Assembly (NCBI RefSeq): GCF_900110485.1
Contig: NZ_FODY01000014.1
Location: 1-64,000, forward strand
Direction: 5' to 3'
DNA length: 64,000 nucleotides
Source: Propionispora vibrioides
GTDB lineage: Bacteria > Bacillota > Negativicutes > Propionisporales > Propionisporaceae
The position numbers and the translations under genes are program-made. Each line of letters begins with the position of its first letter. Positions within the stretch are counted from its first letter, which is position 1. Below the pieces are notes generated by a model, which did not search any database, was not told the origin of the DNA, and saw only the letters and a program-made list of their open reading frames with translations. This document shows, piece by piece, positions 11,804-19,899 of this stretch.

Positions 11804-13885
11804 ATGGATAAGCAAGTAATGGCTATTTTAGAATTATTACTCAGTGAATATGAATACATCACGTATAGTTATATTTCGGACAGATTGGATATCAGTGTCC
11901 GGACGGTTGCCCGGCATATCAAGAGTCTGGAAGGGTATTTTCATAATCACCGTATCCAAGTTGACACCAGACGCGGCGAGGGAATCCGGTTAATTCTCCC
12001 TGACGAAGAACGAACGAAGCTGAAAAAACTGGTCAATAAGAATGACAGCAGCGGGTTACCGGCTGTTGAGCGTAAAATCGTCCTGATTTGTGAACTGCTA
12101 GGCCTGCAGGAACCGGCAAAATCGTATTATTTTTCATCGGCTTTAAAAATATCACTCGGTACGGTTGGCCGGGACCTGGAGGAAATAGAGCCATGGTTTT
12201 CCCAGCAAGGGCTGGTTCTTGTACGCTGTCGTGGCAACGGTCTCTTTGTGACAGGCGCTGAGAAAGCTTTTCGGGATGCCATCGTTAATTTGCTGATCAG
12301 CCATATTGATACGAGGAATATTCATTACAGCTATATTGAGTTTATGGGTCCTGACTTCTTTAAAAAGGAGCTATCGCGCTATACCAAAATCAAGCTGGCC
12401 GGATTGATGGATGGCCACCTGCTCGAAAATATCAAGAAAATAGTAGATAACTATGATAAGAATATCAAAGAAACACTTGTGGATGAATCATACTTTAAGC
12501 TGATTTTGCTATTAGGCCTGATGGTCCAAAGACAGGAGAAAGAACTTGTCCTGGACCGGGAAAACGTACAGGCGGTCAAAAGTTTTACCCAATACGATTA
12601 TATCATAAAACTGCTGCGGGTTATTGAAAAATATTACAATCTGACTCTGCAGGACTGCGACGTATACAACATTTTGATTCATTTTGTGGCGGCGCGCCGG
12701 CGACAGGGCCTGGCCTTAGAACAGTCGCAGGCTGACAGCCAACTGGCGGAGCTTGCTTACAAGATCATCAATAATATTCAGCAGGAATTGCAGGTCAAAC
12801 TTGACTATGACAAAGATTTGTTGAAACGGCTGCTTGACCATCTAAAGCTGTTAATGATCCGGGCCAGTATGGAAGTGAAGGTGACAAACAATTTTCTGGA
12901 ACCGATTAAGACCGATTACCGACACATTTTTGAGGTAGTAAAAAAACATATTGCTTTTTTGGAAGAGGTTATCGGTAAGCCGGTCAGCGACGAGGAAGTG
13001 GGCTATATTACCATTCATTTTGCCGCATCGCTGGTTGCCCTGGAAAACAATGCAAAATCAATCCGGGCTATCGTGATCTGCATGAGCGGCATTGGCACTT
13101 CCAAAATACTGGTGGAAAAAATCAAACAGGAAGTTAAGCCGGTGAATATTGTGGCGACCATATCCAGTCATGCGATCAATGAAATTGAACTGTCGGAACA
13201 GGGGATTGATTTAATTATTTCTTCCGTGAAGATCGAAACCTTTATCCTTCCCGTAGTCGTGGTCAATCCACTGCTCAGGGAGGAAGACAAGCTGCGGTTG
13301 AACCGGAAAATCAATGAAATTGAAGAACGGAAAAACATTGTTTCCATTACGAAAAGAGTTACCGATAAGGCAGTTCAAACCAAGCAGCCCGAGACTGGTG
13401 GCAAGGATACGGGATATTATCTGGCGCTCATTCATCGACTGCTGGAGAATTTTTACTATCAGTACCGGCTTGTTGTGAAAACAAAACAAGAATTGATTGG
13501 CCACATCGCGAGGACCATTGTTGATACCGAGGTCCTGCAGGCAACAATTTTAAGAAATCTGCTTAAGAGAGAGGAATACGGCAGTACGGTCATTGATGAG
13601 AAAGGCCTGGTTTTATTGCACTGCCGGGCCGGTGATTGCCTGCGGGTGGGGATTGCCAGACTGGCTGTTCCGGTCGACGATTTGACTAACGATCCGCCGG
13701 CGAAAATCCGCACCGCCTTTATTGTTGTTCTGCCACAGGAAGATGATGACCGGATCGTAGAAATGGTCAGCCAGATCAGTAAAGCCTTAATCGTTGATAA
13801 AACATTCTTATATGAGGTTTGTGACGGGAATAAGGAAATAGCGGTAGAAAGCATCAGTCGCATTCTGTTTAACTTTATATCATAA
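11804..13885 (+). CDS. mtlR: MtlR-type PRD transcriptional activator
   Basis: A 693-residue PTS-controlled regulator. Domains in order: DNA-binding HTH (1-60; RLDISVRTVARHIKSLE), a second Mga-like helical region (80-170), PRD1 (about 185-290), PRD2 (about 300-405, with YITIHFAASL), an EIIB-Gat-like domain with phosphocysteine (ICMSGIGTSKILVEK, about 425), and a C-terminal EIIA-like domain (about 540-690, with the His in LVLLHCRAGD). In B. subtilis MtlR, EI/HPr phosphorylation of PRD2 activates and EIIA/EIIB-dependent phosphorylation inhibits; the same logic is expected here. It lies between mtlA and mtlF, so it probably controls the whole cluster. Confidence 0.9.
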   Translation: MDKQVMAILELLLSEYEYITYSYISDRLDISVRTVARHIKSLEGYFHNHRIQVDTRRGEGIRLILPDEERTKLKKLVNKNDSSGLPAVERKIVLICELLGLQEPAKSYYFSSALKISLGTVGRDLEEIEPWFSQQGLVLVRCRGNGLFVTGAEKAFRDAIVNLLISHIDTRNIHYSYIEFMGPDFFKKELSRYTKIKLAGLMDGHLLENIKKIVDNYDKNIKETLVDESYFKLILLLGLMVQRQEKELVLDRENVQAVKSFTQYDYIIKLLRVIEKYYNLTLQDCDVYNILIHFVAARRRQGLALEQSQADSQLAELAYKIINNIQQELQVKLDYDKDLLKRLLDHLKLLMIRASMEVKVTNNFLEPIKTDYRHIFEVVKKHIAFLEEVIGKPVSDEEVGYITIHFAASLVALENNAKSIRAIVICMSGIGTSKILVEKIKQEVKPVNIVATISSHAINEIELSEQGIDLIISSVKIETFILPVVVVNPLLREEDKLRLNRKINEIEERKNIVSITKRVTDKAVQTKQPETGGKDTGYYLALIHRLLENFYYQYRLVVKTKQELIGHIARTIVDTEVLQATILRNLLKREEYGSTVIDEKGLVLLHCRAGDCLRVGIARLAVPVDDLTNDPPAKIRTAFIVVLPQEDDDRIVEMVSQISKALIVDKTFLYEVCDGNKEIAVESISRILFNFIS

Positions 13886-13896
13886 GTCTGGGGGAA

Positions 13897-14343
13897 ATGG
13901 ATATGGAACAAACTATTTTATTGCCGGAAAATATTGCAATCAACCTGGCAACCACATCAAAGGAAGCAGCGATTATAGCGGCAGGGAACATGCTGGTAGA
14001 TAGGGGTTATGTGCGCAAATCCTATATACAGGGCATGCTGGAACGGGAAACAGTTTGTAATACGTATATCGGCAATGGCGTTGCCATTCCTCACGGAACT
14101 CATGGAGCTAAACAGGAAATTCTCCGGTCCGGGATTGTTGTGCTGCAGTATAAAGAAGGAATTGACTATAACGGAGATAAGGCCTATTTAGTCATCGGCA
14201 TAGCCGGTGCCGGCGACGATCATCTGGCGATTCTGTCCCGAATCGCCCTAACTATTCAAGATATGGCTACGGTCAACCGTTTGGTACAGACCGAGCAGGC
14301 TGCTGAAATATATGAAACTTTATTAAAACTTAATGAAGTCTGA
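13897..14343 (+). CDS. mtlF: PTS mannitol-specific EIIA
   Basis: A 148-residue phosphocarrier that takes phosphate from HPr and passes it to EIIB of MtlA. The active His lies in NGVAIPHGTHGAK, the family signature, and ILLPENIAINL at the start matches MtlF. It begins 11 bases after mtlR; ATG 13903 (MEQTIL) is an equally possible start. It is the only mannitol-type EIIA in the window, so it may also serve the EIICB at 25801, whose cluster has none. Confidence 0.92.
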   Translation: MDMEQTILLPENIAINLATTSKEAAIIAAGNMLVDRGYVRKSYIQGMLERETVCNTYIGNGVAIPHGTHGAKQEILRSGIVVLQYKEGIDYNGDKAYLVIGIAGAGDDHLAILSRIALTIQDMATVNRLVQTEQAAEIYETLLKLNEV

Positions 14344-14360
14344 GAAAGTGAGGAAAGCAT

Positions 14361-15086
14361 GTGGGAAAGGCAGAAATGATAAAGCAAGAATTGGTAGAAA
14401 TTTCTCCTTCGCTGATTTGTACGGACCTGTGCAATGTGGCTGAGGAAGTACAGCAATTGGAAGCGCTCGGCATTCGTTCGCTGCATGTCGATTTAATTGA
14501 CGGCCACTTCAGTCCCAGCATGCCGTTGGGGCTGGCTACAGTGGCACAATTGCGTAAACGGTGCCGAATGGATTTTGATGTACATGTTATGGCTACCGAT
14601 AATGAGTTTTTTATTAGGGAATTGCTGGCTATCGGAGTGCAAAGTATTACGTTCCATTATGAGGCGGCTTTTCATGTGGAACGGCTGCTGCAACTGATTA
14701 AGGCAGCCGGCTGCCAGGCAGGAATTGCCCTGAATCCGGCGACTCCTTTGTCGGTGCTGGATTATGTGCTTGAACACTGTGATTATGTATTGCTGATGTT
14801 GATTAGTCCGGGCTATGCCGGAAACCAGGGGGAGGCCATGGTGCCCTATGCTCTGCGAAAGATTGAGGAATGCCGGCAATATATCCGGCGCAGCGGCCGG
14901 GCGACGCGAATTATGGTGGATGGGCGGGTTTCCCTGGAGGCTATTCCGGCGGTGGTTGCTGCCGGGGCCGACTGCCTGGTGGCCGGAAGCACCAGCCTAT
15001 TCAGCCGGGAACGGACTCGGGCTGAAAACTACCGTCAAATGAAGGACAAAATTGCCCAGGGTCTGGCGGCGAGGAATTTTTCGTGA
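14361..15086 (+). CDS. Ribulose-phosphate 3-epimerase family protein (AlsE-like)
   Basis: A TIM-barrel sugar-phosphate epimerase of 241 residues. Metal ligands and acid-base residues of the RPE family are present: HVDLIDGHFSPS, DVHVMA, the GYAGNQG phosphate region (GFGGQ in standard RPE), and MVDGRVS. Departures from housekeeping RPE, notably LISPGYAG, fit the D-allulose-6-phosphate 3-epimerase branch. It is not a hexulose-6-phosphate synthase, which lacks this metal site. Gene order mtlF - this - PHI-like - mtlD, with tight spacing, indicates one operon. It could interconvert fructose 6-phosphate and allulose 6-phosphate; substrate is inferred only. The start is GTG 14361 after AGGAAAG, or ATG 14376. 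Confidence 0.8.
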   Translation: MGKAEMIKQELVEISPSLICTDLCNVAEEVQQLEALGIRSLHVDLIDGHFSPSMPLGLATVAQLRKRCRMDFDVHVMATDNEFFIRELLAIGVQSITFHYEAAFHVERLLQLIKAAGCQAGIALNPATPLSVLDYVLEHCDYVLLMLISPGYAGNQGEAMVPYALRKIEECRQYIRRSGRATRIMVDGRVSLEAIPAVVAAGADCLVAGSTSLFSRERTRAENYRQMKDKIAQGLAARNFS

Positions 15087-15100
15087 AAGGATGGGTGACT

Positions 15101-15658
15101 ATGAGTTACCGGGAGACGTATCAAACGATTCTGGAAGAATGCGAAACGGCACTGGGAAAAGTGAAGGAAGACGATGTGAAGCAATTTATTGAGCTGCTGC
15201 TAGAGGCAGAGAAGGTCTTTTTCATTGGTGTCGGCAGAGTGAAGCTGGCGGTGGAAGCCTTTGCCAAACGGCTGGCTCATTTGGGCATTGCTACTTATAT
15301 TGTCGGTCAGATTACTGAACCGGCGATGACCGATAAGGATATGCTGGTAGTGGCATCAGGCAGCGGCGAATCGCTGGTTCCGGTAGCTATTGCCCGTAAG
15401 GCAAAACAAATCGGTGGCAAAGTCGTTCACCTGGGATCTAATCCACAAAGTTCATTGGCACCGATTACCGATTTGATGGTGAGAATTCCCGTCCAGACCA
15501 AGCTGTATTTAGCCGATGAAATCCAGTCCCAGCAGCCCATGTCGAGTTTGTTTGAACAAACGCTGCTGCTTTTGGGCGATACCATTGCCAAAATGATTGT
15601 GGAAAAAGAACAAATTGAGCTTAAAAGTCTGTGGCAGTTTCATGCCAATTTAGAATAG
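15101..15658 (+). CDS. SIS-domain isomerase, 6-phospho-3-hexuloisomerase-like
   Basis: A 185-residue single SIS-domain protein. VFFIGVGRVKLAVEAFAKRL and DMLVVASGSGES are the phosphosugar-binding motifs of the HxlB/PHI family, and length and ending (LWQFHANLE) also fit. PHI interconverts fructose 6-phosphate and arabino-3-hexulose 6-phosphate in the RuMP formaldehyde pathway, but the partner synthase HxlA is not here. Sitting in a mannitol operon next to an epimerase suggests a different use of the 3-hexulose phosphate. An upstream GTG/TTG in frame at 15083 exists, but ATG 15101 gives the family N-terminus. Confidence 0.8.
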   Translation: MSYRETYQTILEECETALGKVKEDDVKQFIELLLEAEKVFFIGVGRVKLAVEAFAKRLAHLGIATYIVGQITEPAMTDKDMLVVASGSGESLVPVAIARKAKQIGGKVVHLGSNPQSSLAPITDLMVRIPVQTKLYLADEIQSQQPMSSLFEQTLLLLGDTIAKMIVEKEQIELKSLWQFHANLE

Positions 15659-15680
15659 CGGCAGGGAGATGGATACTTTG

Positions 15681-16850
15681 ATGAAGGCGGTGCATTTCGG
15701 CGCAGGCAATATTGGGCGTGGTTTTATCGGCAGCCTGCTGCACCATTCGGGCTATGCGGTTACTTTTGTCGATGTTAACAAAACGTTGGTGCAGGCCTTG
15801 CGTGAGAAGAAAAGCTATGAAGTGGTATTCATTGATGAACAGGACGGCAGGGAAGTCATTTCCGGTGTTTCGGCTCTTGATGCCGGTGAGGAACAGGCAG
15901 TTATTGAGGCCATTGTCAAGGCTGATTTGATTACCACGGCAGTATTTGTGACCATGCTGGACCATATTGCCGGTGCCATTGTCAAGGGCTTGCGGGAAAG
16001 AATAAAGAAAAATCAAAAGCCCTTGCATATTATGGCCTGTGAAAACGCGATTAACGCCAGTTCGGTTTTAAAAGCGGCGGTTTACCGGCAGCTTACACCG
16101 GCAGAACAACAGGCGGTTGAAGGAGTAATCGGCTTTCCTAATGTAGCCATTGACCGGCAGGCGATAAACAGGCAACAAGGAGAGATAACGACAGCCTATG
16201 TGGAACGGTTTTATGAAATGACCGTTAATGAAAGTCAGTTGATTGACGGTATAAAACCGCTGCAGAATGTCAGCTATGTGCGGGATCTGGAACCATATAT
16301 TGAAAGAAAGCTGTTTTTAGTCAATGCCGCCCATGCCATAACAGCGTATATGGGTTATTTATACCAGTGTGCAACCATCCAACAGGCGTTGGAGCAGCCG
16401 GAAATTCTAACCGTTGTAAACCGGGCGTTGGCGGAGACCGCTTGCCTGTTACAGGTGAAACACGGATTTTCCCCGGTAGAGTTACAAACGTATATTCAAA
16501 CGTTACTGCGGCGGTTTGCCAATCCTTTATTATCTGACCAGATAGCAAGAGTGGCCCGCTCACCCCTTCGTAAGCTGGGAATGAATGAGCGCCTTGTTGG
16601 TCCGGCCAGGCAACTGCTAGCCAGAAATCTGCCGGCCGAGTATGTAAGTATGGGGATTGCGGCTGCTTTGCTGTATGATGCGGAGCAGGATGAGGAAGCG
16701 GAACAATTGCAAATCTATTTGAGGGACAACGGTCTGGAGCAAACTTTGCTACACTACAGCGGTTTGGACAAGGAAGAGCCCCTGCTGAATTTGATTAAAG
16801 CAAAACTGGATGAGTTACGGAAATTAACGGGAAGGACTGGCAGGATATAA
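15681..16850 (+). CDS. mtlD: Mannitol-1-phosphate 5-dehydrogenase
   Basis: NAD-dependent enzyme that oxidises mannitol 1-phosphate to fructose 6-phosphate, the step after PTS uptake. The Rossmann motif HFGAGNIGRGFIG at the N-terminus is the MtlD signature. HIMACENAINAS, GFPNVAIDR and KLFLVNAAHAITAYMGYL (catalytic region with Asn/His) are also present; 389 residues matches the family. ATG 15669 directly abuts the Shine-Dalgarno AGGGAG, so I prefer ATG 15681, which gives MKAVHFGAGN. It is the last gene of the mtl operon. No clear terminator follows. Confidence 0.95.
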   Translation: MKAVHFGAGNIGRGFIGSLLHHSGYAVTFVDVNKTLVQALREKKSYEVVFIDEQDGREVISGVSALDAGEEQAVIEAIVKADLITTAVFVTMLDHIAGAIVKGLRERIKKNQKPLHIMACENAINASSVLKAAVYRQLTPAEQQAVEGVIGFPNVAIDRQAINRQQGEITTAYVERFYEMTVNESQLIDGIKPLQNVSYVRDLEPYIERKLFLVNAAHAITAYMGYLYQCATIQQALEQPEILTVVNRALAETACLLQVKHGFSPVELQTYIQTLLRRFANPLLSDQIARVARSPLRKLGMNERLVGPARQLLARNLPAEYVSMGIAAALLYDAEQDEEAEQLQIYLRDNGLEQTLLHYSGLDKEEPLLNLIKAKLDELRKLTGRTGRI

Positions 16851-16929: not shown

Positions 16930-17268
16930 TTGACAAAAAATAAAAAATTCTGTAAACTGTAGATGGTTGCAAATGTAAAAATAGAATAGCGGTTCGTGAT
17001 TCGATATAAAAATACATAGTTACAATTGCATAAATAAACAGGATGGATAACTAGAGAATCCCCTTGTGTTCGTGGCAACGAGTACAAGGGGGTTTTATCT
17101 ATATAAATAAGGCTGTTATACATGCAAAGATGGGGGCTGCAGGCAAACGACGGGGAGGAAGTGAGAGTGCGGTAACCGGACAGAGGCGAAGCCGGGCGAC
17201 AGAAGTCTTTTCAGCCATCGCATGCAGAGGCATGTATAAAGTATACCAGGAGTAGAGGAGAGGTTGCA
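16930..17268 (+). promoter_or_regulatory. Sigma-A promoter and 300-base leader of the chemoreceptor gene
   Basis: TTGACA (16930-16935), 17 bases, TAAACT (16953-16958) is a good promoter. About 95 bases into the transcript is a terminator-like hairpin: CCCCTTGT (17060-17067) pairs with ACAAGGGG (17084-17091), followed by GTTTTATCT. A further 165 bases rich in short G/C pairings precede the gene. The layout resembles an attenuated leader or a separate small RNA. I tested cyclic-di-GMP (GEMM-I) and cobalamin riboswitch motifs by eye and neither fits. Confidence 0.45.
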
Positions 17269-19182
17269 TTGCAGACGAAATTGATCGGCTGTTTTGTTAC
17301 GGTTTTAATTGTTACGGGAGTGTTGGCTGCTGTTATAGCGCAACAAGCGAGCTTTTTTTGGTCTGTTGGTGTAGTCATTTGCCTGGCAACCGTGGCAGGT
17401 GTCATCTTGTCCCGGCTTTCGCCTGAAGAAGCCAGGGAAGTTCCTGTAGCGTCAGAGCGCAAAGAAGCTGTTGTGCCCCAGGACGAAACGATTGATATGT
17501 ATGGAATTGCGGAATCATTGTCTTTTATTTCCCAACAATTGGCCTGGGTTGTCGGCCAAAGCAGCACAGCCTTAAAAAAGATGACGAACATGTCCCATGA
17601 CATTGCCCGGGAAAGTGAAACGACCGCCAGCAGTGCCGAGGAAACTTCGGCGGGGGTAGAGGAAATCGCCGCCAATTCGGCTGTAGTTGCCAATGCTTCC
17701 CAAGCGGCGCTGGAGCAATGTCAAGAGTCCTGTAGCTTGACGGTGCATAATCAGCGGGAAATTGTCAAATCCAGCAATAGTATGCTGGAGGTGGCAGAGG
17801 TGGTGCAGGACTCGGTAGTGGCGATGGATGAATTAATTGCAGCGTCACAAAAAATCGGTGAATTTGTCGGCAAAATCCAGGGCATTGCCAGCCAGACCAA
17901 TTTATTGGCCTTGAATGCGGCTATTGAAGCGGCTAGAGCCGGTGAAGCCGGGCGTGGCTTTGCGGTGGTTGCCGAAGAGGTACGGAAATTATCCGGGGAA
18001 AGTGAAGCGGTAAGCCGGGAAATTGAGGAAACGGTAAAAGATATTACCGCCAAGACGCAGGCTGCCACAGCCAGTATGCAAAGCGGCAAGACAAAAATTG
18101 AAGGAATCGGGCAGATGGCCAAAGCTTCGGCCGAAGGGATGCAGGTGGTCGTGGGACGGGTTCAGCAGATTGAGGAAACGGTAGCCAAGCTGTGCCAGCT
18201 TTCTACAGATCAGCAAAGAACCACCGGTCAAATGGCCACTGCTGTGGAAAGCATCGGCTCGGCCACCGTGGAAATCGCCGGCGGCACGCAGGAGGCGCTG
18301 CAGAGCATTGCCCAGCAGGAAAAAAGCATGGAAGAAATTCTGTCCCATGCCAAGCAGATGACGGCTACGGTGGATAAAATTCAGGAAGTGGCTGTTCACT
18401 TTAAAAAGGCAAATGAATTGGTGTTCGGGTTTAATCCTTTTACTAACCCTCAGAATATTAAGGAAAACTATACGCCGCTGTTGGAAGCGGTGGGGCGGAA
18501 ACTGGGCCTCCAGGTTCGTGTCATTATCGTTTCCGACTACGATTCGCTGGGGCGGTCTTTATTGCATAATACCATCGATTTAGGCTGGTTTTCTCCCTTT
18601 GCCTATGTTTCGGCCAAATCGAAAGGCAATGTGACCCCCTTGGTTACCACGGTAGTCAATAACAATGCATCCTATGTCGGATACATTGTTGCCCGCAAGG
18701 ACAGTGATATTCAGTCGCTGGAACACCTGCGCAATAAACGGTTTGCCTTTGTGGACAAGCAATCGGCTTCCGGTTATATTTATCCCCGGGCGATGCTGCT
18801 ACAGGCTGGTAAGGATCCGGAACACTTCTTTAGTGAATCGGTGTTCCTTGGCAGCCACAACCGGGTTATCGAGGCCGTCCTGGACGGAACGGTTGATGCC
18901 GGCGGGACCTATTCGGAAGCGGTCGATGCCGCGAAACTTGCCGGCCGGCCGGTGGACAATCTGCGCATTCTCACCAAGACGGAACCTATCCCCAAGGACG
19001 CCATTGCAGCACGTCCGGGCCTGGAGCCGGAAATTATACGGCAGATACAGCAAGCCCTGATGGCGATGACGGCACAAGGCGAAATGGGAGCAATTATGAA
19101 ACGCAGCGGGCTGACTGGATTTATTGAAGCGAAAGACGAGTACTATGATGTGATCAGAAAGGTCGCCAATAGCAGCCGGTAA
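17269..19182 (+). CDS. Methyl-accepting chemotaxis protein with C-terminal PhnD-like domain
   Basis: A 637-residue receptor in an unusual order. Two N-terminal transmembrane helices form a hairpin (about 6-27 and 30-46). The cytoplasmic signalling coiled coil (about 90-380) has the tip [20 protein letters not shown]. Then follows a 240-residue periplasmic-binding-protein fold (about 388-630) related to the phosphonate/phosphite-binding PhnD family ([50 protein letters not shown]). No membrane segment lies between signalling and binding domains, so the ligand domain should be inside the cell, unlike ordinary chemoreceptors. The start is TTG 17269, five bases after AGAGGAGAGG. Ligand unknown; an oxyanion or phosphonate is a family-based guess. 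Confidence 0.85.
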
Positions 19183-19205
19183 ACAACGGAAAATAGCGAA
19201 TGCGC

Positions 19206-19244
19206 AAAGGACAATCTTTTTTAGATTGTCCTTTGTGGTTTTTT
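19206..19244 (+). terminator. Terminator of the chemoreceptor gene
   Basis: AAAGGACAATCT and AGATTGTCCTTT form a 12-bp stem, followed by GTGGTTTTTTG. Confidence 0.8.
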
Positions 19245-19350: not shown

Positions 19351-19899
19351 ATGACGGCAAATTTAATTCCGTTTTATTATACCATCGGTTTCACGGTGAT
19401 TCTGGTAGCCCTGGTTCCCCGTCGGGATATTCGCCGTCTGGCTATTTACGGCATGATCTTTGGCGGCCTGGCCGATATTTTGGTAGTTAGCTTTGCCAAT
19501 TATATTGGTGAGTTCCGGTACATTAATTATGAACCTTTTGGCTTGTTCGGCATACACTTTATGGCCCCGATTGCCTGGACGGTTTTTTTTATGCTGTATT
19601 TTTATTTTCTGCCGTCAGAGACTGTATACCGTTATGTTTATACGGTTATGGGCATGTTGTATAGCATGATGTTCTGCCAGACCATTACCAAACTGGGAAT
19701 CCTGTCGCTGGCCAACGGTCTGATTGATTCGATTGCTCCCTTTGTTCCCTGGTATTTGGTGGCAACCTGGGGCTATATTAAGCTAACCGAAGAGGAGGAG
19801 CGACAGCCACGACGCAGCGGGACGTTTGCCGTATTGCAGCCGGCGGCTAAGCCGCTGCCGCCGGAGAGTGAGAAACTGCCGGATGGATCAAAATCTTGA
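19351..19899 (+). CDS. Multi-pass membrane protein of unknown function
   Basis: A 182-residue protein with four or five hydrophobic segments (about 7-22, 30-50, 62-85, 92-112, 120-140) and a charged, Pro-rich cytoplasmic-looking tail of about 40 residues. Conserved-looking features are a loop VPRRDIRRL and FRYINYEPFGLFGIHFMAP. I recall similar small membrane proteins in spore-forming Firmicutes but cannot name the family. Clear Shine-Dalgarno AAGGAGG. Monocistronic between two terminators. Confidence 0.75.
   Translation: MTANLIPFYYTIGFTVILVALVPRRDIRRLAIYGMIFGGLADILVVSFANYIGEFRYINYEPFGLFGIHFMAPIAWTVFFMLYFYFLPSETVYRYVYTVMGMLYSMMFCQTITKLGILSLANGLIDSIAPFVPWYLVATWGYIKLTEEEERQPRRSGTFAVLQPAAKPLPPESEKLPDGSKS

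Follow-up and report, generated by a model that had tools for sequence, protein, structure and literature searches.

The window analysed here, a 64,000-nucleotide stretch of a Propionispora vibrioides contig (NZ_FODY01000014.1), encodes a chemoreceptor in which a PhnD-type binding domain follows the signalling coil at the C-terminus. Judged from its sequence and those of its homologues, this fusion protein is probably an intracellular chemoreceptor for glycerol 3-phosphate (G3P), or a close C3 phosphate, serving metabolism-dependent glycerol taxis. The architecture, the cytoplasmic location of the binding domain, its intact pocket, the intact tip of the methyl-accepting chemotaxis protein (MCP) and the linkage to glp genes were computed directly.

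Architecture of the fusion protein

The fusion gene (17269–19182, + strand, as are all features given below) encodes 637 residues, starting with TTG at 17269, 5 nt downstream of AGAGGAGAGG, and ending with a stop at 19182; it was assigned from the open reading frame (ORF) and its Pfam matches. MCPsignal matched residues 168–331 (E = 5.5e-37) and Phosphonate-bd (PF12974) matched residues 386–626 over its full-length profile (1–242 of 242, E = 4.7e-72). NCBIfam placed the C-terminal domain in the phosphate/phosphite/phosphonate binding-protein subfamily, under the PhnD equivalog cut-off. Hydropathy gave two N-terminal membrane segments, at about residues 5–23 and 29–47, and no other above-threshold segment in all 637 residues.

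An AlphaFold2 model was built on a 49-sequence family alignment. Together with the hydropathy, its helices define membrane helix 1 as residues 2–26 (17272–17346) and membrane helix 2 as residues 29–49 (17353–17415); since the loop between them is short, there is no room for an outside domain. A disordered linker leads to the signalling coil, one continuous helical coil at residues 77–378 (17497–18402) with its hairpin tip around residues 203–241. The first strand of the binding domain lies at residue 383, so that the domain begins 5 residues past the coil end, after a linker of about four residues, and was modelled with a pLDDT of about 89–96. With PF12974 and Foldseek, the PhnD/PtxB-type domain was delimited as residues 383–636 (18415–19176). 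Foldseek matched it to PtxB, HtxB, ArrX, AioX, Escherichia coli PhnD and GpxB, with open-form HtxB/PtxB superposing best (TM 0.85 by target), and matched the signalling coil to the Thermotoga receptor 2ch7. The genome itself has CheA-type kinases (three H-kinase_dim matches).

The original prediction had read two N-terminal membrane helices, then the signalling coil and a complete binding-protein fold last. Pfam, hydropathy and AlphaFold2 all bear this order out: the C-terminal region has strong similarity to binding proteins, and no third membrane segment was predicted, at residues 380–400 or elsewhere.

The binding domain lies inside the cell

At loci with a complete N-terminus, two membrane segments were predicted in 54 members (one of these has three), one in 4 and none in 18; L108, whose 5′ end is cut off, was left out of the membrane-free count. 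With the homologue L027, the membrane-free members number 19 in all, and parsimony places at least 7 changes between the anchored and soluble forms on the tree. In no member was a membrane segment predicted between coil and binding domain. Since 19 members lack any membrane helix, the binding domain must be cytoplasmic in these; and since the MCP tip must meet CheA in the cytoplasm, the domain behind the coil should be cytoplasmic in the anchored members too. On the sequences, we therefore regard the cytoplasmic location of the binding domain as close to certain, and the claim that a chemoreceptor here carries a C-terminal cytoplasmic PhnD-type domain holds.

The PF12974 relatives with solved structures are, judging by their names, periplasmic binding proteins, which would favour an ordinary outside-sensing receptor with its binding domain somehow exported. 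Given the uninterrupted path from coil to domain in every member, the 19 members without a membrane helix and the need for the tip to reach CheA, such an arrangement is hardly credible. There is no secretion signal before the binding domain, which comes after the cytoplasmic coil, and no ABC transporter genes were recognised among the neighbouring ORFs from their translations; the fusion is not a transport protein.

A family of fusions across anaerobic phyla

The MCPsignal–PhnD order was found in a coherent family of about 100 fusions from Negativicutes, Clostridia, Synergistota and Spirochaetota, the two Pfam domains co-occurring in 49 of the 49 diverse members scanned. The genome scan gave 80 loci, from Negativicutes, Clostridia, Acetomicrobium and Spirochaetes; the genera and groups include Pelosinus, Sporomusa, Anaerovibrio, Selenomonas, Pectinatus, Clostridium, Acetobacterium, Caproiciproducens, Tepidanaerobacter, Alkaliphilus, Acetomicrobium, Spirochaetaceae and others. 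Across 398 genomes of the phylum, scores for the domain were bimodal, with fusions at 292–466 bits and free binding proteins at ≤183 bits; the fusions scoring ≥292 bits have ORFs of 565–672 residues. Fusions were present in 15 of 60 related genomes, with identities from 97% in a second species of the genus (G002), through 63–65% in other Negativicutes, down to about 50%. The 97% identical copy and the large family rule out a sequencing artefact or chance fusion.

The MCP tip residues N216, A217, I219, G225, G228, F231, V234, E237 and L241 are invariant in 49 members. Across 14 close homologues, mean identity was 65% for the binding domain, 64% for the signalling domain and 26% for the membrane part. 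The membrane anchor therefore appears to matter little, whereas much seems to depend on the binding domain, which is conserved to the same degree as the signalling domain. At the coil start (17509–17553, residues 81–95), an FxxQQLxW motif specific to the family is kept in anchored as well as soluble members.

Some members depart from the common form. The copy in Propionispora sp. 2/2-37 (L112 6001–6785; G001:C3:265753-267287), which comes after a PAS/sigma-54 activator gene, looks damaged, its first about 123 residues being unmatched and the reading frame shifting near residue 460. A 735-residue member (L096 4549–6753) has about 100 extra residues between membrane helices and coil, and Acetobacterium-type members (L095, L101, L103, L105, L111 and L113) have a soluble N-terminal extension. 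One Sporomusaceae genome carries two fusion copies (G050:C62 and G050:C106; L050, L053), the second being shorter, with a disrupted or divergent coil in which the tip motif was not recognisable.

The ligand pocket

PtxB holds the phosphite oxygens by Y55, Y100, S130-T131-S132 and H160 (PMC5700983). E. coli PhnD and PtxB/HtxB (PMC5700983) have the fold in common with the fusion, and the phosphate-head residues of PhnD and PtxB are the same in it, although these proteins are periplasmic and work with ABC transporters. In the fusion the site consists of Y424 (18538–18540; Te_PtxB Y55, E. coli PhnD Y47), found in 81 of 81 members; Y469 (18673–18675; Te_PtxB Y100, PhnD Y93), in 80 of 80; S499-A500-S501 (18763–18771; the S-T-S of the PtxB STS-H motif), with both serines in 80 of 80 and A500 in 77 of 80; and H530 (18856–18858; Te_PtxB H160, PhnD H157), in 80 of 80. 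The Tyr, Tyr, S-x-S, His phosphate-head site of the PhnD/PtxB family is thus intact. At the tail end of the pocket, E550 (18916–18918), kept in 73 of 80 members, corresponds to E. coli PhnD E177 and occupies the position of GpxB R223, while the cap residue D577 (18997–18999), kept in 80 of 80, corresponds to PhnD D205 and occupies the positions of PtxB Y208 and GpxB T247; the GpxB positions were mapped onto the fusion through E. coli PhnD. With the phosphate-head residues invariant and D577 and E550 as in E. coli PhnD, the site is predicted to take a phosphate-type head with a polar tail.

Conservation reaches ≥98% at 35 of 257 positions, and these include each of Y424, Y469, S499, S501, H530 and D577 (p = 4e-6). 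This bears on a reading in which the domain has lost small-molecule binding and serves for dimer packing or as a docking site for a glp enzyme. A receptor encoded beside metabolic genes could also report enzyme binding, and the conserved FxxQQLxW motif could be a protein contact. However, a pocket out of use should drift, and the residues of this one rank with the best-conserved positions of the domain, which makes such a loss of binding very unlikely.

The capping tyrosine of the PtxB type (Te_PtxB Y208) is absent, aspartate taking its place in all 80 members, and a phosphite sensor was ruled out on this ground. GpxB (PDB 9lf9), a PhnT-family binding protein, binds glycerol 1- and 3-phosphate and has Arg and Thr at the tail positions (PMC12718374). 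It belongs to the same fold family as the fusion domain and has an S-x-S / His / Tyr phosphate site, but it is a transport protein, is 21% identical in the fold match, and its R223 and T247 are not kept in the fusion. The fusion may therefore work like GpxB, but we do not class it as a GpxB-type G1P/G3P binder. The acidic E550 and D577 could accept hydrogen bonds from the glycerol hydroxyls, but the tension with the Arg/Thr of GpxB is real: in its tail, the pocket resembles the aminophosphonate-binding E. coli PhnD and not GpxB, which counts against G3P. E550 is absent from three members within glp operons (L114, L119 and L124); if these bind G3P, E550 is not essential.

The tail residues raise the alternative of a cytoplasmic sensor for a phosphonate or an amino-phosphonate such as 2-aminoethylphosphonate, whose amine is held by E177 and D205 in E. 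coli PhnD; the matches to PF12974 and TIGR01098 also fit. PhnD T14, on the other hand, is F391 in the fusion. Moreover, a search for PhnJ of the C–P lyase found it in none of the 15 fusion-bearing genomes of the 60 relatives, and the 25 commonest neighbour clusters contained glp genes but no set recognisable as a phosphonate gene cluster. A phosphonate ligand is on these grounds improbable.

Association with glycerol 3-phosphate metabolism

When the ORFs around the 80 loci were clustered, genes of G3P metabolism stood out. The recurrent neighbours, whose identities were checked with NCBIfam and Pfam, were GlpK, GlpB, GlpC, GlpA, a MIP-family channel (glycerol-facilitator type by context) and GlpP (PF04309, E = 2e-61). 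GlpA occurred in an anaerobic-dehydrogenase form and a second, type-2 G3P-oxidase-like form, the latter accompanied at fusion loci by an FAD oxidoreductase and DUF1667 pair. At least one glpP/F/K/A/B/C gene was near 34 of 100 fusion loci (the 80 plus 20 further loci with wider flanks), compared with 0 of 40 control chemoreceptor loci, which were drawn from Negativicutes genomes and not matched one-to-one to the clostridial fusions (p = 1.5e-6). In the wider-flank set the figure was 12 of 20 (p = 9e-8), both p-values being rough, as a few loci were in both sets (G033 = L052 was counted once) and overlaps were incompletely removed; here the glp genes were all on the same strand as the fusion. 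Two thirds of the fusion loci had no glp gene in the flank examined.

Several gene orders were seen: P-F-K-A-B-C-fusion, fusion-A-B-C, P-fusion-F-K-A-B-C and K-A-FADox-DUF1667-..-fusion. That the order varies between lineages speaks for repeated selection and not one inherited arrangement. Outside the genus, the homologue closest to the window's gene (L017/L161) comes immediately behind glpC. A search of the 64-kb window itself brought up no glp gene, which counts against G3P; in the window's own genome, glpP-F-K-A-B-C is on another contig, apart from the receptor. Among the 60 relatives, GlpK was present in 15 of 15 fusion genomes versus 22 of 45 others (p = 1.8e-4).

Taken together, the pocket and the gene neighbourhood point to G3P or another small phosphate ester, and away from phosphate, phosphonate or a mineral oxyanion; the first suggestion of an internal phosphate, phosphonate or other oxyanion ligand was accordingly given up. 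A different phosphate ester or phosphate itself (DHAP, 3-phosphoglycerate, phosphoethanolamine or inorganic phosphate) in place of G3P we consider unlikely. In favour of such a ligand, the phosphate-head pocket is of a generic kind, several compounds of this class are bound by PacP, the known C3-phosphate chemoreceptor (PMC12395807), and the glp context fits DHAP as well; but the recurrent neighbour GlpP, of a G3P-responsive antiterminator family, favours G3P, and no phosphate-uptake genes were recognised among the recurrent neighbours of the fusion loci.

At five loci (L081, L086, L114, L119 and L124), the gene just upstream of the fusion, placed between it and the glp genes, encodes a sigma-54 activator-type regulator, which may regulate those glp operons; one of these regulators has an HPr-like N-terminus by eye.

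In the window, the region upstream of the fusion (11804–16850) reads as a sugar-alcohol PTS regulator, EIIA, ribulose-phosphate epimerase, SIS isomerase and mannitol-1-phosphate dehydrogenase. The genus has been described for fermenting sugar alcohols, and this run is in keeping. Directly downstream (19351–19899) is a 182-residue membrane protein without a Pfam or NCBIfam match.

Proposed mechanism

The proposed G3P receptor would work as follows. The two membrane helices would serve only as an anchor, and the two-lobed PhnD-type domain would be suspended from the membrane-proximal end of the coil on the cytoplasmic side, about where ordinary receptors have HAMP. Glycerol would enter the cell and be phosphorylated by glycerol kinase, and the G3P formed would bind the cytoplasmic domain. 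Lobe closure would act on the C-terminal arm of the coil, whose shift would change CheA activity at the tip, with adaptation then through methylation. The FxxQQLxW motif opens the N-terminal arm, at the same end of the coil as the binding domain, and would be a possible contact or docking face. In this way the cell would swim by its own glycerol (or glycerol-phosphate) metabolism. We infer the identity of the ligand and the conformational coupling, and likewise any attractant or repellent sign of the response.

More broadly, we are inclined, on balance, to see in the family a widespread class of intracellular chemoreceptor, apparently undescribed, in which a flytrap domain of transport origin behind an MCP coil measures cytoplasmic G3P and gives direct metabolic taxis without PTS or energy-taxis intermediates. 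In the literature searched, outside which most subscription papers fall, no MCP ending in a PhnD-type domain was described. Metabolism-dependent taxis has usually been traced to the PTS or to redox sensing. If the proposal is true, a dedicated receptor binds a central metabolite inside the cell, and 'swim by what you metabolise' becomes testable with one purified domain. It would also mean that a periplasmic-type binding domain works in the cytoplasm, and that input is coupled to the C-terminal coil arm, a geometry unlike that of outside-in receptors. The family's anaerobic hosts belong to several phyla and include the glycerol user Lucifera butyrica (PMC6315149; locus L073) among others, so the function may be general in these organisms.

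Comparison with known systems

HemAT, Aer and TlpD are chemoreceptors that sense inside the cell, and those of the TlpD type carry a C-terminal sensing domain, but the sensing domains are globin, PAS or zinc-binding and not Venus-flytrap domains. ArrX and AioX are PhnD-like proteins that serve signalling and not transport; they are separate periplasmic proteins for arsenic oxyanions, paired with histidine kinases. ArrX (ArrX/AioX: PDB 6x6b, 6esk) was the best single-sequence and fold match of the fusion's binding domain. Binding-protein domains are recognised in general as sensor domains of cytosolic signal transducers (PMC9602780).

The PacP / sCache_PC3 chemoreceptors (Pectobacterium) bind G3P and other C3 phosphates outside the cell and were presented as the first chemoreceptors for phosphorylated compounds (PMC12395807). 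Most members tested of that family preferred G3P, like the ligand proposed for the fusion, but their sCache domain is outside the cell between two membrane helices, whereas the PhnD-type domain is inside and C-terminal; an sCache domain had no Pfam match in the fusion, and the room for an outside domain is lacking. E. coli glycerol taxis needs glpK, and the signal reaches the chemotaxis pathway through the PTS (PMC4996493). An internal product is therefore sensed, as proposed for the fusion, but via the PTS, whereas a dedicated receptor domain is proposed here.

Leader, promoter and terminator

A sigma-A-type promoter candidate, TTGACA-17-TAAACT (16930–16958; 10 of 12 matches), is unchanged in the related genome G002; a sigma-28-like motif at 16982–17007 was dropped, as it is not kept there. 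A strong hairpin followed by a T-rich tract, a terminator or attenuator, lies in the leader (17056–17095; RNA fold z −5.77). The hairpin foreseen in the original prediction thus exists, but its role as a second control layer gained no support: the hairpin had no significant Rfam match and the leader no second copy elsewhere in the genome, G002, the sole close relative, being too similar to be informative. The hairpin might equally be a terminator for transcripts of the upstream operon. A GlpP-type antiterminator leader in common with the glp operon was rejected, since the leader also has no similarity to the genome's own glp region. From the hairpin to the start codon (17100–17250) the sequence has no Rfam family, and is purine-rich and nearly unchanged in G002. 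Past the gene, a terminator-like hairpin (19203–19237) with a 15-bp stem and a T-run suggests that transcription ends after the fusion gene.
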